Shown here: piece by piece, positions 9,255-62,136 of the stretch
Layout of the letters: each line of letters opens with the position of its first letter
Numbering within the stretch: position 1 is the first letter of the stretch
Assembly (NCBI GenBank): GCA_029782135.1
Contig: JAKOVI010000119.1
Location: forward strand, 1-63,835
Reading direction: 5' to 3'
DNA from: Bacillota bacterium
Lineage (GTDB): Bacteria; Bacillota; UBA4882; UBA10575
Length of the DNA: 63,835 nt
The notes under the pieces: generated by a model
What the model saw: only the letters and a program-made list of their open reading frames with translations
What the model was told of the DNA's origin: nothing
Databases searched by the model: none
Translations under genes and position numbers: made by a program

Positions 9255-9420
9255 CTTTCCTCCTCCTTTTCTCCCTTCGTTCAGGGTGTTTGTACATCCT
9301 ATGTCTGTCCTACCCGTCCGGCCTACCTGCCAAACGCCTGATCTTCGTATTTTTAAAAAAGTCCAGGATAAACTAGATGACACGGGAGAAGAAAAAATCC
9401 CCGGCCGGAGGAGGTAGAAA

Positions 9421-45876: not shown

Positions 45877-46377
45877 TTATTCCAGGATCCGCAACTGCTC
45901 GGCCCGGTAACCGGTGACGGTCGTGACCAACTCCCCCAGATCGGCAACGAGCGCCGCATTCAACTCCCGTCCTTTAATCACAATGGTGATCGTCTCCGGA
46001 TAGACCGCTACCGCACTATAGGTATACCCTTTTGCTTTCAGCAGGTTCTCAAGCTCAGCCTCCAAAGCCTGCCGTTTCGTTAAGACCAGCAACTCCTCCT
46101 GGAGTTTGCCCGTTTGCGTTTGGTCGGCCATCGCCAGCATGGCCATCAACTGTTCTTGCAGCCGGCTCCGCTCCCGGTCCCTGGTCAAGCGGAAATCGGC
46201 AATCAGCGAGTCATAGCCGAGCGGATCGACGGCCACCACCGGTACTTCAAGCGACGGAGCGGGTGATCTTGCCGGGAAAAACCATGAATAAAGCAGACCA
46301 AAGAAGCCGATGAGAAAAAAAACAACCACGACAATGAGTACAGGAATAATGCCGGGCTGGAACGCTTTTAACTCCAC
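45877..46377 (-). CDS. spoIIIAH: Stage III sporulation protein AH
   Basis: 166 residues: one N-terminal membrane anchor (GIIPVLIVVVVFFLIGFFGLL) and a C-terminal EscJ/YscJ-like ring domain (KRQALEAELENLLKAKGYTY, VAVYPETITIVIKGRELNAA). SpoIIIAH lines the mother-cell side of the channel to the forespore and binds SpoIIQ. The start is GTG at 46377 after AAAGGAGG. Confidence 0.92.
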   Translation of the reverse strand: MELKAFQPGIIPVLIVVVVFFLIGFFGLLYSWFFPARSPAPSLEVPVVAVDPLGYDSLIADFRLTRDRERSRLQEQLMAMLAMADQTQTGKLQEELLVLTKRQALEAELENLLKAKGYTYSAVAVYPETITIVIKGRELNAALVADLGELVTTVTGYRAEQLRILE

Positions 46378-56641: not shown

Positions 56642-57631
56642 CTATTCTTCTGTGACAACCCCTTCTTGCTCCTGGATCAGCCGGACATAAAGGAGCAACT
56701 CCTTCCGGGAGTTCACGTTCAACTTGGCATAGATCCGTTTATTGTGGGTCTTAATCGTATTAATGGAGAGGCACAGGATCTCCGCGATCTCCTTCGCGGT
56801 GTACCCTTTAATGTAAAGGTTGAAGACGGAGCGCTCGGCAGGGGAGAGGGTCGCAATATTTTTGACAAAATCCTGGAAGAGGGGGGAGTTTTTCGTCACT
56901 TCCTCCGCCGGCAACTGCGTACTGGCAGCCGAATCCTGCGCGGCTAAAAAAGCAAACAGATCATCGATCTCTTGAATATTCGTCTTTTCGTAGGTGGACA
57001 CTTTGCCGTCCTTCACCTTCTGCAGGGCGCCGACCACCGGCGCGATTTGGTGACGGCTGATTAAGGCAGCAGCCCCCACGCTAAAAGCGAGCAGCAGAAA
57101 GAGCAAGATTAAAAAGCGCCGGTTGTGCTCTCGAATACTGGCCCTTAAATCTTGTTCCGGCATGAGAATCGCCAAGGCCCATTCATTTCCGGAAAAGACC
57201 GCATCCTTCGGGTAAATGTTTATTGTTTGGTGGAGCCCTGTGTATGTAGAGCCGTCCGCGGCAAAATAAGTTGAGAGGCCGTTCTCCTGGGTTTTGAAGG
57301 GTAAAGGACCGCCGTTTTGTAAGGGAAGCGCCGTGTAATTCCCGGCGTACATTGCTTTTGAAGCGTCCAGCTCATTCCTTTGTTCCGGTGCGAGCATGGC
57401 AAAGACCCGGGTGTAGGTGGAACTGGCCGGGGTATTTTGCAGTTTGAACAACATCGCACTGACCTCGAACCCGCAAACCCCGATCACAGAGCCATCGGAA
57501 GTGATCAGCGGGACACAAAGCAACATCACTTTCTCAAAATTGCCCGCCAACACGCTACTTGGGTTCCAGTAATACAGGCGTGACAGCGGAAGGGTACTCC
57601 CCTTTGCCGCGTTCATCGTGGTGAAAAAAAA
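56642..57631 (-). CDS. LuxR-type membrane regulator, downstream half (HTH); split by an A9 run
   Basis: C-terminal part of a membrane-bound one-component regulator. It includes the end of an extracytoplasmic sensing domain (LYYWNPSSVLAGNFEKVMLL; GSVIGVCGFEVSAML), a membrane segment (FLILLFLLLAFSVGAAALIS), a short linker and a LuxR/GerE DNA-binding domain at the C-terminus (LSPAERSVFNLYIKGYTAKE then IAEILCLSINTIKTHNKRIY). It has no convincing start of its own: the first ATG (57616) lacks a ribosome binding site. It reads on naturally from the gene half at 57555-58277 if one base is removed from the nine-base A/T run at 57624-57632. Confidence 0.8.
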   Translation of the reverse strand, partial: FFFTTMNAAKGSTLPLSRLYYWNPSSVLAGNFEKVMLLCVPLITSDGSVIGVCGFEVSAMLFKLQNTPASSTYTRVFAMLAPEQRNELDASKAMYAGNYTALPLQNGGPLPFKTQENGLSTYFAADGSTYTGLHQTINIYPKDAVFSGNEWALAILMPEQDLRASIREHNRRFLILLFLLLAFSVGAAALISRHQIAPVVGALQKVKDGKVSTYEKTNIQEIDDLFAFLAAQDSAASTQLPAEEVTKNSPLFQDFVKNIATLSPAERSVFNLYIKGYTAKEIAEILCLSINTIKTHNKRIYAKLNVNSRKELLLYVRLIQEQEGVVTEE

Positions 57632-58277
57632 AGTCCCCCGGTTCCACCTGGAATTCCATTTGCCATTGGGGCAGCATGTTAAGGCCTTTTTGCCGGGCAA
57701 TGGAAGCGGGCCCCCGTAAAAAGCGGATCGCCGGGAAAGCGAGGTTAATCACATTGGGTTCCATGTTCTTCAAAAAAAGCCCGGCCCGGGAAGTTTCCGC
57801 GGTGGCGAGCGCCGGATTGATCGTAGCATCCAGAACCACAAAAGCCCCGCTGCTCTTGTTCTTTTCCAAGGCGGCGACCAGTAACTCGAAGGATTCGTTA
57901 AGGATTGACTCCAAAAGGTGGGGATGGTTCTTAAGCTGGGACGGGGGTAGACCTTCTGCTTGCAGCCTGTTTTCGATTTGTTCGCTTAAACGCTTCGAGA
58001 GCGTAACTCCTTCGACCGAGAGGATCCCGAATTCCCGGGCAACATTCCCGGCAATATGTTTGAGTTCATTCCGTAAAAAGAGATAACACTCGTTCAACCC
58101 AACCGAGAAAGCTCCGGTGGAAAAGAGGATCAAGATTAACCCCAGCATAACGGCTGTTAAAAAAAATGATAAAAAAAGTAAAAGAGCGCCGTTGCAGGGA
58201 AAGCCTGTTCCTTTTCGGAAAGAGAGCTGGCTTAAGCATCTTCGTACACCTTCACTGGATTCTTCAAGGGTTGACAA
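57555..58277 (-). CDS. LuxR-type membrane regulator, upstream half (sensor)
   Basis: N-terminal part of the same regulator. A short cytoplasmic lead, one membrane segment (LLLFLSFFLTAVMLGLILIL) and the first part of a dCache-like extracytoplasmic sensing domain (LLESILNESFELLVAALEKN; GAFVVLDATINPAL). After GDFFF, encoded by the T9 run, this frame soon ends at 57555, while the other frame continues the domain. The start is TTG at 58277, overlapping the end of the solute-binding-protein gene by 14 bases, so both genes are transcribed together. Confidence 0.75.
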   Translation of the reverse strand: MSTLEESSEGVRRCLSQLSFRKGTGFPCNGALLLFLSFFLTAVMLGLILILFSTGAFSVGLNECYLFLRNELKHIAGNVAREFGILSVEGVTLSKRLSEQIENRLQAEGLPPSQLKNHPHLLESILNESFELLVAALEKNKSSGAFVVLDATINPALATAETSRAGLFLKNMEPNVINLAFPAIRFLRGPASIARQKGLNMLPQWQMEFQVEPGDFFFHHDERGKGEYPSAVTPVLLEPK

Positions 58278-59625
58278 AGTCCTGATAAAGCTCTTCGCTC
58301 ACCACAGACAATGCTTTTTGCCCCTTGAGAACACTCTTCCTTCCTTCCGACATTATCTGTTTCAACTTGGTCTCGTATTCTTTGCTTAACCTGTCTAATT
58401 GCTCGTAGTTGGGCGGGACCACGAAGGTGTATTCCCCGTACATCTGAGCAGCCGCCTCCAACAACTTCTTTAGATTCTGGGTCTTCGCCGTTTTGATCTC
58501 CCGCTTGATATTGTTTTCAAACGCTTCTTTGGTAACGGGCAGATAACCGGTGGAAGAGACAAAACGCATATTCTGCGCCGGTTGGGTGAACCATTTCAAA
58601 AACAACACGGCAGCATATTCTTTTTCGGGCGTCGAGTGCCGGACGCACATCCCGCTGCCGCGCTGCAAGGCCAGTTTGGCGCTGCCTTGGAAGGTCGGGT
58701 AAGGCAAGATTGTATATGTAACAATCTCGGTCGTATTATCAGGGTAAGTGATACGGTCGCCATAAAAAAGGATCCCGGCGGTCGAGCCGATGGAGCAGAC
58801 GATCTCACCGGTCTTGGACAGATCGGAGGAATAGCTGTTCGTGACCGCATAACCGCCGGCCAGCGCGGGCAGAACACTAAAATTCCATACCGGCTTGAAA
58901 AGTTCTGAAGCGGTATTCAGGTGATCCGGGTAGATAAACTCCCCACCCAACTGGGCCATCCCGACATGGGCAATATTAAACCAGGAGTCGGCCGTGAAGA
59001 ATGTCTTCCCGTCATTGTCTTGATCGGGAGTGAGGGCATCCGTCCATTGATAATATTTAACCGCCGCGTCGGCAATCCCCTCGAAGGTGGCGAGACTCTC
59101 CAGCTTGACACCGGTTGCGGCGGAAAAACGGTCAAACAGTGTCTGATTGACAAACAAGACCTCGGTCGATTTGGCAATCGGGAAAACATAGAGCTTCCCG
59201 TCGTCGAGCCTGCCTTCCTCAATAAACTGCGGCAGGTAGGCATCGAGTTCTTTCGGAGTGAATTGATCATCCAAGGGGGTGAGCAATCCTTGTTTCGCAA
59301 GGATCAGCGCAGTTTTAGGGTAAGCGGTTACGAGATCAGGCATCTCCGGGGCGCCGGGATCGCCGGCGGCGATCATCATCAGTTTTTCTTGAAGATCTTT
59401 GGAGGCTGAAATGGAGGTAACACTGATGATCACGCCTTTTTTCCGCCCGACTGTGCTGTTAAACTCATCAACCAATTCGTCCATCACGCTCTGCATCTGA
59501 CCGCCATAGTTGTGCCACATCGTAACCGTCACCGGTTTTTTGGGATCAAGCTTTACACGCTCGCACCCAAACGACAAGAAAGCTGTCAAAAGACAGACAA
59601 GGATCAGGGAGACTCTTTTCTTCAT
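58264..59625 (-). CDS. Extracellular solute-binding lipoprotein (family 1, UgpB/MalE-like)
   Basis: 453 residues from the ATG at 59625 (GGAGGCGG upstream). Lipoprotein signal with lipobox Cys (LVCLLTAFLSFGCER). Family 1 binding-protein features: PVTVTMWHNYGGQMQSVMDE, PDLVTAYPKTALIL, YVFPIAKSTEVLFVNQTLFD, QRGSGMCVRHSTPEKEYAAV. Such proteins deliver sugars or glycerol phosphate to ABC importers. No permease or ATPase gene is adjacent; the partner is a membrane LuxR-type regulator, so a ligand-sensing role is possible. Confidence 0.9.
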   Translation of the reverse strand: MKKRVSLILVCLLTAFLSFGCERVKLDPKKPVTVTMWHNYGGQMQSVMDELVDEFNSTVGRKKGVIISVTSISASKDLQEKLMMIAAGDPGAPEMPDLVTAYPKTALILAKQGLLTPLDDQFTPKELDAYLPQFIEEGRLDDGKLYVFPIAKSTEVLFVNQTLFDRFSAATGVKLESLATFEGIADAAVKYYQWTDALTPDQDNDGKTFFTADSWFNIAHVGMAQLGGEFIYPDHLNTASELFKPVWNFSVLPALAGGYAVTNSYSSDLSKTGEIVCSIGSTAGILFYGDRITYPDNTTEIVTYTILPYPTFQGSAKLALQRGSGMCVRHSTPEKEYAAVLFLKWFTQPAQNMRFVSSTGYLPVTKEAFENNIKREIKTAKTQNLKKLLEAAAQMYGEYTFVVPPNYEQLDRLSKEYETKLKQIMSEGRKSVLKGQKALSVVSEELYQDFVNP

Positions 59626-59645
59626 AAGAACCGCCTCCATTTTCC

Positions 59646-59913: not shown

Positions 59914-61122
59914 ATGGGTTTCCACCAATCCTCGGAAGCGAATTTAAAGACCAATAACCTGGCCTATTTGGGTTTTATCAAGCTTTTCGATCATTCCTTT
60001 CCGGCAAATAACCAGGTCGTCAATCTCCGGGATAAATATAACGCACTTGATTTAGCCGAGTATTATTTCCGGTGCGGGATGGACGTTTCCCGTCAGGTGA
60101 GCGAGGACCGCTTTTTCCAAACCCTCAGCCGTTCCTTTTTGGCCTTCGTTGCGGCGCGGAAAGGAGAATGGGATGAGGCGTTAAAGCTGGCGGAGGAAGC
60201 TTTCGCTGAGGCCTTAACACAAGGAGGGGCAATTGTCCCACTTTGCGAGCTCCTCTTCAGTGCAATCCTCTTGGAGAGCGGGGATCACGAGCAGGCCCGG
60301 AAACGGATGGCCAACTCGCTCGAATTCTTGAAAAGAATAGCTGTTGAGACCACAGGCAAAGATGCTTATCTCTTTAGAATTCAAATGTTCGGCCCCATCC
60401 GGGTCTTCCATGGCGGACAGGAGATTAATACCGCCCAGTGGCGGACGGTCAAATCGCGCCACCTTTTGGCCTACCTTGCCCATCAGGATAAACCGGTCAG
60501 TACCGATCAGATCATCGAGGATCTCTGGCCGTATGTTGAGCCGGATAAAGCAATCGCTTTGTTCCACACCACCCTTTACTATCTGCGCCGCCTCTTGCAA
60601 CAGTTTACGACGGAAGAGATGATTATCCGTGGTTCCAAACGTTACCAACTCCGGCCCGGTTCCGTCTTCATCGACCGTTTTGAATTCGAGAAAAATGCCC
60701 GTTTAGCTTTGGAAAAAGAAATGTCCACCGAGTTGGCGGAACAGCTGGAAAGCACCATCTTGCTTTACCGGGGAGATTACCTCGAGGATCTTGACTACCA
60801 ATGGATCGCGCCTGTTCAAGAGCGATTACGGAATTTAAACATGGAACTTCGACAGAAGCTGGCCATCTTTTACCTGCAAAATAAGATGCCGGCCAAAGCC
60901 TTGCTTCACTTGCAGCAATTGATGGCCTTGAACCCTTACTCCGAAACAACGCTCAAACTACTCCTTACCGCCTGTGCGGAAATGGGTGATCAAGCAGCGG
61001 CGATCAAACACTATCTGGCCTTTACGAGAAATATCGCCAAGGAATTGGGCCTGCAACCATCGGCCGAGCTAAAAAAGTATTTTTCGAACATCGTAAAAGA
61101 AAAGAGTAAAGCCGCTTTATAA
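59914..61122 (+). CDS. SARP/BTAD-type transcriptional regulator
   Basis: 402 residues. The N-terminal ~150 residues are helical and TPR-like (LAEYYFRCGMDVSRQVSEDR; EWDEALKLAEEAFAEAL). An OmpR-type winged helix follows (about 155-245: FRIQMFGPIRVFHGGQEINT; SRHLLAYLAHQDKPVSTDQI), then a BTAD domain (about 250-395: GDYLEDLDYQWIAPVQERLR; LLLTACAEMGDQAAAIKHYL). Such proteins bind short direct repeats and activate transcription. Targets may be the AATCACCC boxes upstream. GGGGGAAAGG precedes the ATG. Confidence 0.88.
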   Translation: MGFHQSSEANLKTNNLAYLGFIKLFDHSFPANNQVVNLRDKYNALDLAEYYFRCGMDVSRQVSEDRFFQTLSRSFLAFVAARKGEWDEALKLAEEAFAEALTQGGAIVPLCELLFSAILLESGDHEQARKRMANSLEFLKRIAVETTGKDAYLFRIQMFGPIRVFHGGQEINTAQWRTVKSRHLLAYLAHQDKPVSTDQIIEDLWPYVEPDKAIALFHTTLYYLRRLLQQFTTEEMIIRGSKRYQLRPGSVFIDRFEFEKNARLALEKEMSTELAEQLESTILLYRGDYLEDLDYQWIAPVQERLRNLNMELRQKLAIFYLQNKMPAKALLHLQQLMALNPYSETTLKLLLTACAEMGDQAAAIKHYLAFTRNIAKELGLQPSAELKKYFSNIVKEKSKAAL

Positions 61123-61140
61123 GCGGCTTTACTCTTTTTA
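61101..61140 (+). terminator. Bidirectional terminator between SARP and CsgG-type genes
   Basis: A perfect 17-bp stem (61101-61117 with 61121-61137; core AAGCCGCTT/AAGCGGCTT) with a TAT loop, overlapping the SARP stop codon and flanked by A and T runs. It can serve both convergent genes. Confidence 0.92.
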
Positions 61141-61185
61141 AAAAACGGATCTTTGCCAAGCTATCCTCTTATTTTTTTGTCCTTT

Positions 61186-62136
61186 TTATTTTTGCTGGAC
61201 CGGATCCCCAACCGCCGGGGTCAGGCTACCGCTTAATTTCTTCACAACCGTACAGGTTGCGGAGCGCTCCTTGACCTCGGTCACCTTAATCTCGGCTACA
61301 TCTTCCGTAACTTCATCAATGACCTCGCCGCTAAACGGATCTTTTACCACCTCAAGCACCCGCTTAATGACGAAAACCATATCCATCTTGACCCCCGATG
61401 AGGAACCGATATTCAGGATGACCCGGTCACCCGAAGCGTAAGCAACTACACCCTTTATTTTCGCGGCTTGGGACGGTTTCCGGCCGCTGCTGTAGGCTTG
61501 ATCGGCAAGTTGTTCCGATGCGGAAGCCACCGCCTCACGCAGGGCAATACCCAAATTGGTGGTACGGAATTGATCACTGCCGAGGGCAACCCTACTCCAA
61601 TCCACTTCCACCGACAGGTTGGTGCTGCGTTTTTCCCCACGCCCGGTGACGCTGGCGATAATCTCCGCCGTAGTGGTATCAACGAGGCGGGCATCGATCG
61701 CCACGATCGCGTTGGTACTCTTGACCCCCAACCCAAGACCCTTGGAGAAACTTACACCGCTTACTTCGGCCGATTTAAGACTAAATTCGGTGACCCTGCC
61801 CATCACCAGGAAATCAACGCCTAAAATTTTCCCAATGGCCGAGGCGGTCTTGGGATCAACCCTGCCGCTTTGCCCGAAATCCTGTTCGGCCAAGACCTTA
61901 TCAATCTGTTCCCGTTCGATCAGCCTGAATTTTTTGGTCTTCAACAACTCGGTGACGAACTCGTCGGAGACCCCCTTACCGACATCCCAATGGCCCTCAT
62001 CCCACCAACGATTTTGGATCGAACCGTCGTCAAAGGGGAGGACCGCAATTTTGTAGAGCTCCTGAGCACCGGCTGTTTGTAAGATCAGAGCGGTAAAAAC
62101 GACTAACAACAACCACAAGAAGAATCTCCGTTTCAT
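61186..62136 (-). CDS. CsgG/HfaB-family protein
   Basis: 316 residues with a Sec signal peptide (FLWLLLVVFTALILQTAGAQ). The CsgG-type domain shows KIAVLPFDDGSIQN, FRLIEREQIDKVLAEQ, GKILGVDFLVMGRVTEFSL and a conserved transmembrane-hairpin region, followed by an FlgT-C-like module (GVVAYASGDRVILNIGSSSG). CsgG forms an outer-membrane pore for curli. No lipobox Cys is present, unlike E. coli CsgG, and no curli genes are near, so the role is open. GGAGGTG precedes the ATG. Confidence 0.85.
   Translation of the reverse strand: MKRRFFLWLLLVVFTALILQTAGAQELYKIAVLPFDDGSIQNRWWDEGHWDVGKGVSDEFVTELLKTKKFRLIEREQIDKVLAEQDFGQSGRVDPKTASAIGKILGVDFLVMGRVTEFSLKSAEVSGVSFSKGLGLGVKSTNAIVAIDARLVDTTTAEIIASVTGRGEKRSTNLSVEVDWSRVALGSDQFRTTNLGIALREAVASASEQLADQAYSSGRKPSQAAKIKGVVAYASGDRVILNIGSSSGVKMDMVFVIKRVLEVVKDPFSGEVIDEVTEDVAEIKVTEVKERSATCTVVKKLSGSLTPAVGDPVQQK

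Follow-up and report, generated by a model that had tools for sequence, protein, structure and literature searches.

Does a membrane-bound LuxR-type regulator whose sensor half and DNA-binding half lie in different frames represent two genes, one gene with a switch, or one gene that has been broken? The question is raised by a locus in a stretch of 63,835 nucleotides from a Bacillota bacterium (assembly GCA_029782135.1, contig JAKOVI010000119.1, positions 1 to 63,835), referred to here as the window. An initial annotation had described the gene as split exactly at a run of nine T, with phase variation, transcriptional slippage, a recent mutation or a homopolymer error as possible meanings. The sequence and its open reading frames bear out the run itself: T9 at 57632-57624 (minus strand) parts the sensor half from the LuxR-type half in adjacent frames, and both halves stay readable through it. 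The frame upstream of T9 reads ..EPGDFFFHHDERGK.. and stops at 57555, and the frame downstream reads ..GTFFFTTMNAAKG.., stops at 56642 and ends in a LuxR-type HTH. This HTH was the sole domain that Pfam detected on the window pieces (GerE, PF00196, E=4.6e-15 in the downstream piece).

Do relatives carry one gene here or two? Using the downstream half as the query, we scanned genomes of bacteria and archaea and obtained 69 homologous loci. A single open reading frame of at least 500 amino acids was present in 61 of them (L053, which spans a run of N, was counted as open). Five of the eight loci without such a frame end at a contig edge (L052, L057, L063, L065, and L086); the remaining three are L087, broken across N, L089, with the HTH alone, and L069, with a frame break at a T8. 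A second set consisted of the window's own genome and 60 genomes around it (61 in all), with several contigs shared with the 69-locus scan; the full-length match was open in all 14 other genomes of this set that had one, at 543 to 593 amino acids and with no internal stop. No intact second copy was found in the assembly of the window's own genome, where other matches were of HTH length only. That the halves might be two separately conserved genes, a case considered at the outset, is rejected, as relatives have one gene. On these comparisons, the locus holds one gene, not two, and is to be annotated as one broken gene.

The HTH part alone, 71 to 79% identical, is retained at L089:5983-6303 (Syntrophomonas wolfei) and, in another genome of the phylum, at L018. 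It is perhaps a remnant, or perhaps a domain belonging to another gene.

Where does the gene begin, and is T9 its only break? When the window's three frames were aligned with 15 relatives, the N terminus conserved in relatives (MLKP...LSLQRRSFTFF) mapped to the ATG at 58239, and it was with this codon, not with the listed TTG at 58277, that the relatives' start aligned. Comparison of the window, L021, and L022 revealed length differences of 1 to 2 bases in the spacer that separates the upstream gene's stop from the ATG, and such variation between genomes fits a start at ATG 58239 over the upstream TTG. This ATG lies in a third frame, distinct from that of the sensor half. From it the window encodes MLKPALFPKRNRLSLQRRSFTFFIIFF, after which the frame is lost at a T8 (58166-58159) and translation ends after 57 codons (stop, 58068-58066). 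DNA alignment with the four nearest homologues (L021 to L024) revealed just two coding indels, each of them one additional T in a T-run. At the first break, the window has T8 compared to T7 in frame in L024 and T5 in L021; at the second, it has T9 compared to T8 in frame in L021, L022, L024, and L029, and relatives run through this site as GDFFFT in a single frame. Because there is a second break, at T8 in TM1, T9 alone cannot account for the split.

The initial annotation was right that the T9 break is real and missed the one at T8. Its further proposal, that eight T would give a protein of about 545 residues, is correct only with the mechanical TTG start at 58277, and the N terminus of that protein would be nonconserved. 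A start codon picked by the length of the open reading frame had concealed the second break. The three window pieces showed 71 to 88% amino acid identity to L021 and L022 and, by alignment, are unambiguously homologous to one protein (Table 1).

Table 1. Coordinates of the broken regulator gene, its parts, and genes associated with it
Feature	Location	Strand	Basis
Ancestral single gene for a transmembrane dCache-LuxR regulator, in three frames here	56642..58239	-	Homologous loci and alignment
Frame 1: conserved start ATG 58239 and N terminus ahead of TM1	58180..58239	-	
T8 run: first frame break (+1), within TM1	58159..58166	-	DNA alignment, codons
Frame 2: remainder of TM1 and first half of dCache sensor	57633..58158	-	Alignment; mechanical ORF 57555-58277
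T9 run: second frame break (+1), within dCache domain	57624..57632	-	DNA alignment, codons
Frame 3: second dCache half, TM2, linker, LuxR-type HTH	56642..57623	-	ORF, Pfam
Intact solute-binding-protein (SBP) gene (SBP_bac_8), directly upstream partner	58264..59640	-	PF13416, E=2.6e-29
Double-zinc-ribbon protein genes in relatives	L034:2160-2912, L036:2399-3154, L038:1806-2564	Opposite to SBP gene	

What would the intact protein look like? An AlphaFold model of the L022 homologue (60 sequences, mean pLDDT of 81.5) contained a helix at residues 15 to 41 (TM1), a mixed alpha/beta domain, a helix at residues 361 to 410 (TM2 and linker), and the HTH helices, with the TM helices assigned by eye. The middle domain matched dCache ligand-binding domains, also by Foldseek, and the best dCache match was PctA (5t65 and 5ltx; Z of 18.5, rmsd of 3.8 over 231 residues, 13 percent identity). 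Pfam detected the LuxR/GerE HTH (PF00196) in 60 of the 60 relatives of alignment A1, dCache_1 in one of these relatives, and MCP-like_PDC_1 in seven. As modeled, the intact protein is a membrane one-component regulator with a predicted order of TM1, extracytoplasmic dCache domain, TM2, and cytoplasmic LuxR-type HTH.

This architecture bears on the idea that the split is functional, with a separate sensor protein and a separate DNA-binding protein being made. A possible restart codon is available in frame 3, ATG 57616, which lies 7 bases past T9 and before the frame 2 stop. However, alignment and model place the break inside the dCache fold, the downstream product would be without TM1, frame 2 is without a conserved start, and no homologue is divided like this. 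We give a functional split hardly any credence.

Are the two additional bases present in the organism, or are they products of sequencing or assembly, each run having been called one base too long in a gene that is intact? Such an error is the main rival explanation, and we consider it rather unlikely. Both breaks fall in homopolymers, and the genome is a draft of 163 contigs. In addition, L069 (Syntrophaceticus schinkii Sp3) is broken at another T8 of the same gene (L069:5520-5640), and its upstream SBP gene also matches as two pieces; according to its genome report, this strain was sequenced on an Ion Torrent PGM at 35x (PMC4642661). The L069 break is probably a sequencing error in the public record.

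The long runs elsewhere in the window's own genome argue against an error. Codon-usage scoring with 150-base flanks was too weak for frame calls, and a hexamer score and homology were used instead. Among 78 distinct runs of at least 8 bases that were scored (∼0.46 Mb plus the T9 sites), 10 had coding sequence on both sides; by hexamer score, nine of these were in frame, and the one that was shifted was T9 at the regulator. Four more in-gene runs, at window positions 46315 and 47896 and in L104 and L126, are crossed in frame by homologues, which gives 13 other in-gene runs of at least 8 bases in frame. The long in-gene runs total 15, a small count, and two random errors among them would share a gene in 2 of 105 pairs (∼2 percent), a post hoc figure that ignores locally poor coverage. 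The two pairs are the T8/T9 pair here and two runs of L111 in one open reading frame, as judged by open lengths.

Frames were also surveyed against genes of genome G001. Across 135 matched G001 genes (at least 60% match), which cover 127 kb of the sequence sampled from the window's own genome, the regulator was the sole clear frame break; the automated survey is blind to short terminal breaks, and the T8 break came to light solely through alignment. Another candidate, at window positions 9269-9283, was rejected, as its out-of-frame part precedes the start of a protein that is otherwise 94% identical. The reverse control survey returned one candidate in G001 (L241), and a smaller first survey had listed extra candidates arising from short shadow frames. 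Outside the window and the survey sample, a G001 protein matches L094:2609-3009 (own genome, contig C6) as two adjacent pieces in different frames, with 64% and 63% identity, 15 bases between the two matches, and no run seen nearby; this may be another frame break in the genome that holds the window. A scan for viral-contig patterns gave no match.

Could the T-runs instead be a contingency device that toggles the regulator through slipped-strand mispairing? Runs of T8 to T9 are hypermutable in principle, and 6 of the 16 relatives with codons listed have, at their GDFFF site, a T8 or T9 that can slip again. However, two tracts are out of frame together, so that two separate corrections would be needed, and the Ion Torrent locus L069 is the only fetched homologue seen to lose its frame at a run of this kind. 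Quantification of A/T runs of at least 8 bases revealed them in 20 of 60 homologous open reading frames, compared to 20.0 ± 2.9 in synonymous shuffles. Because the count equals that of the shuffles, the runs are not selected for, and the T8 or T9 at GDFFF is explained by coding for FFF; the enrichment of a tract beyond coding needs by which a contingency gene is recognized was not found. We regard phase variation as improbable.

Slippage could also occur during transcription, at U8 and U9, with a fraction of the mRNA being full length and both forms being made. Insertions by the transcription machinery are known to occur in A/T runs and to increase with run length (PMC5574713). In this case, however, transcripts would need a one-base loss at both runs, and the same study reports mainly insertions at runs: of the transcription deletions in E. 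coli, less than 1 percent start inside uninterrupted runs, and no transcription error restoring frame was seen. Moreover, T8 to T9 runs also occur in in-frame relatives, where slippage would only hurt. Transcriptional slippage thus strikes us as highly improbable. Neither it nor phase variation, both proposed at the outset, gained positive support, given two tracts off at once, in-frame relatives with runs of 8 to 9, and runs that are unenriched.

How old, then, is the break? The dN/dS of the two long pieces compared to L021 and L022 was 0.11 to 0.18, with intact pairs at 0.11 to 0.16, and that of the first piece (14 to 20 codons) was 0.16 to 0.21. Unique nonsynonymous and synonymous changes numbered 2:9 in the middle piece and 7:18 in the last piece, the same ratio as in relatives (Fisher's P = 1, with few changes in the test). 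Neither dN/dS nor the unique changes revealed relaxed selection or further decay in the pieces. As judged from these substitutions, the break is very recent; the lack of relaxed selection is just as expected from a segregating switch or from an error in the assembly. Intact orthologues in relatives together with a frame broken here characterize a frameshifted pseudogene. Since there is no excess of nonsynonymous change, we do not class the gene as an established pseudogene; at most, it became one very recently.

The explanation that we favor, and hold to be probable, is that very recent slippage mutations, two T-run expansions, silenced the regulator gene. Slipped-strand mispairing would have added one T to the T-run in TM1, now T8, and one to the T-run in the sensor, now T9, so that both indels would be present in the organism's DNA, and the second may have arisen in a gene that the first had already killed. 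Because long runs mutate far faster than other sites, a dead gene can gain two run indels before other decay; in the poly(A) tract of inlA, for example, mutation was reported to be raised about 1,000-fold (Orsi et al. 2010, PMC2831843). Function would be lost, as the conserved ATG opens a frame of only 57 codons and no product would link the sensor to the DNA-binding domain. Among the four meanings first offered, a recent mutation is the best supported, as each indel adds one T to a T-run and the pieces are free of signs of decay. In inlA of Listeria monocytogenes, as that report describes it, a single-base change in a run silences the gene in a potentially reversible way, as here (PMC2831843). 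In contrast to inlA, two tracts are hit together here, and reversion is known from no population of this organism.

What of the SBP gene directly upstream? In the window it is intact and 86% identical to that of G001. An SBP homologue lies upstream of the regulator in 60 of the 69 loci (counted by eye); of the nine loci without an SBP match, seven have 0 to 210 bases upstream, and two (L083 and L089) have room and no match. Across the 61-genome set, SBP (E values up to 1e-60) and full-length regulator are both present in the same 15 genomes and both absent from the other 46. Of 15 other family members, 4 have neither gene, so the pair is dispensable. The SBP and dCache-LuxR gene family is found in many Bacillota genomes and in some spirochaete ones. 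No ABC permease was matched by Pfam among 17 neighbor genes of relatives and 3 of the window, and one ABC ATPase was found (L073). From its gene neighborhood, the pair looks like a stand-alone sensing unit.

Other genes lie beside the pair. Two of them (window positions 59914-62136) are conserved there in the nearest relatives: one, divergent from the SBP gene, for an activator with a BTAD domain, with homologues in L021 to L032, and one for a CsgG-domain protein, with homologues in L021 to L024 and L028. In three distant relatives, a gene for a double-zinc-ribbon protein lies on the opposite strand ∼0.8 to 1.4 kb upstream of the SBP gene (Table 1); it may be a target of the pair or a partner to it.

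One scheme that would unite these elements is that a lipoprotein SBP, with no neighboring permease, presents a ligand to the dCache-LuxR protein, and that in this lineage the two T-runs act as locks, with few cells regaining the regulator. We find this scheme very doubtful. Under the reading that we favor, recent silencing by slippage, loss of the partner while the SBP gene stays intact is a natural test of the pair's role.

How does this regulator compare with known systems? Transmembrane transcription regulators (TTRs; PMC10269533) are likewise membrane-anchored one-component proteins with an outside sensor. The regulator here carries a LuxR-type DNA-binding domain at its C terminus, and the main text of the TTR paper (PMC10269533) is without the term LuxR or GerE. 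The dCache chemoreceptors, such as PctA, have a similar extracytoplasmic fold, but the output of PctA-type proteins is a chemotaxis signaling domain, whereas that of the regulator is an HTH. The frameshift itself is ordinary; the wider value of the locus lies in the strictly paired SBP and dCache-LuxR family. Our literature search found no description of an SBP plus dCache-LuxR pair, and, on the evidence of its genes, this is possibly an undescribed SBP-coupled one-component system. In XylFII-LytS, an SBP gene lies beside a signaling gene, as in the pair here. To our knowledge, the known SBP-coupled sensors pass their signal to histidine kinases or to other parts of two-component systems. CuaD of Ruminiclostridium cellulolyticum, as presented in its report (PMC10384115), likewise has an SBP gene beside a signaling gene. 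In contrast to these SBP-coupled sensors, CuaD and XylFII-LytS, the partner of the SBP here carries the DNA-binding domain itself.
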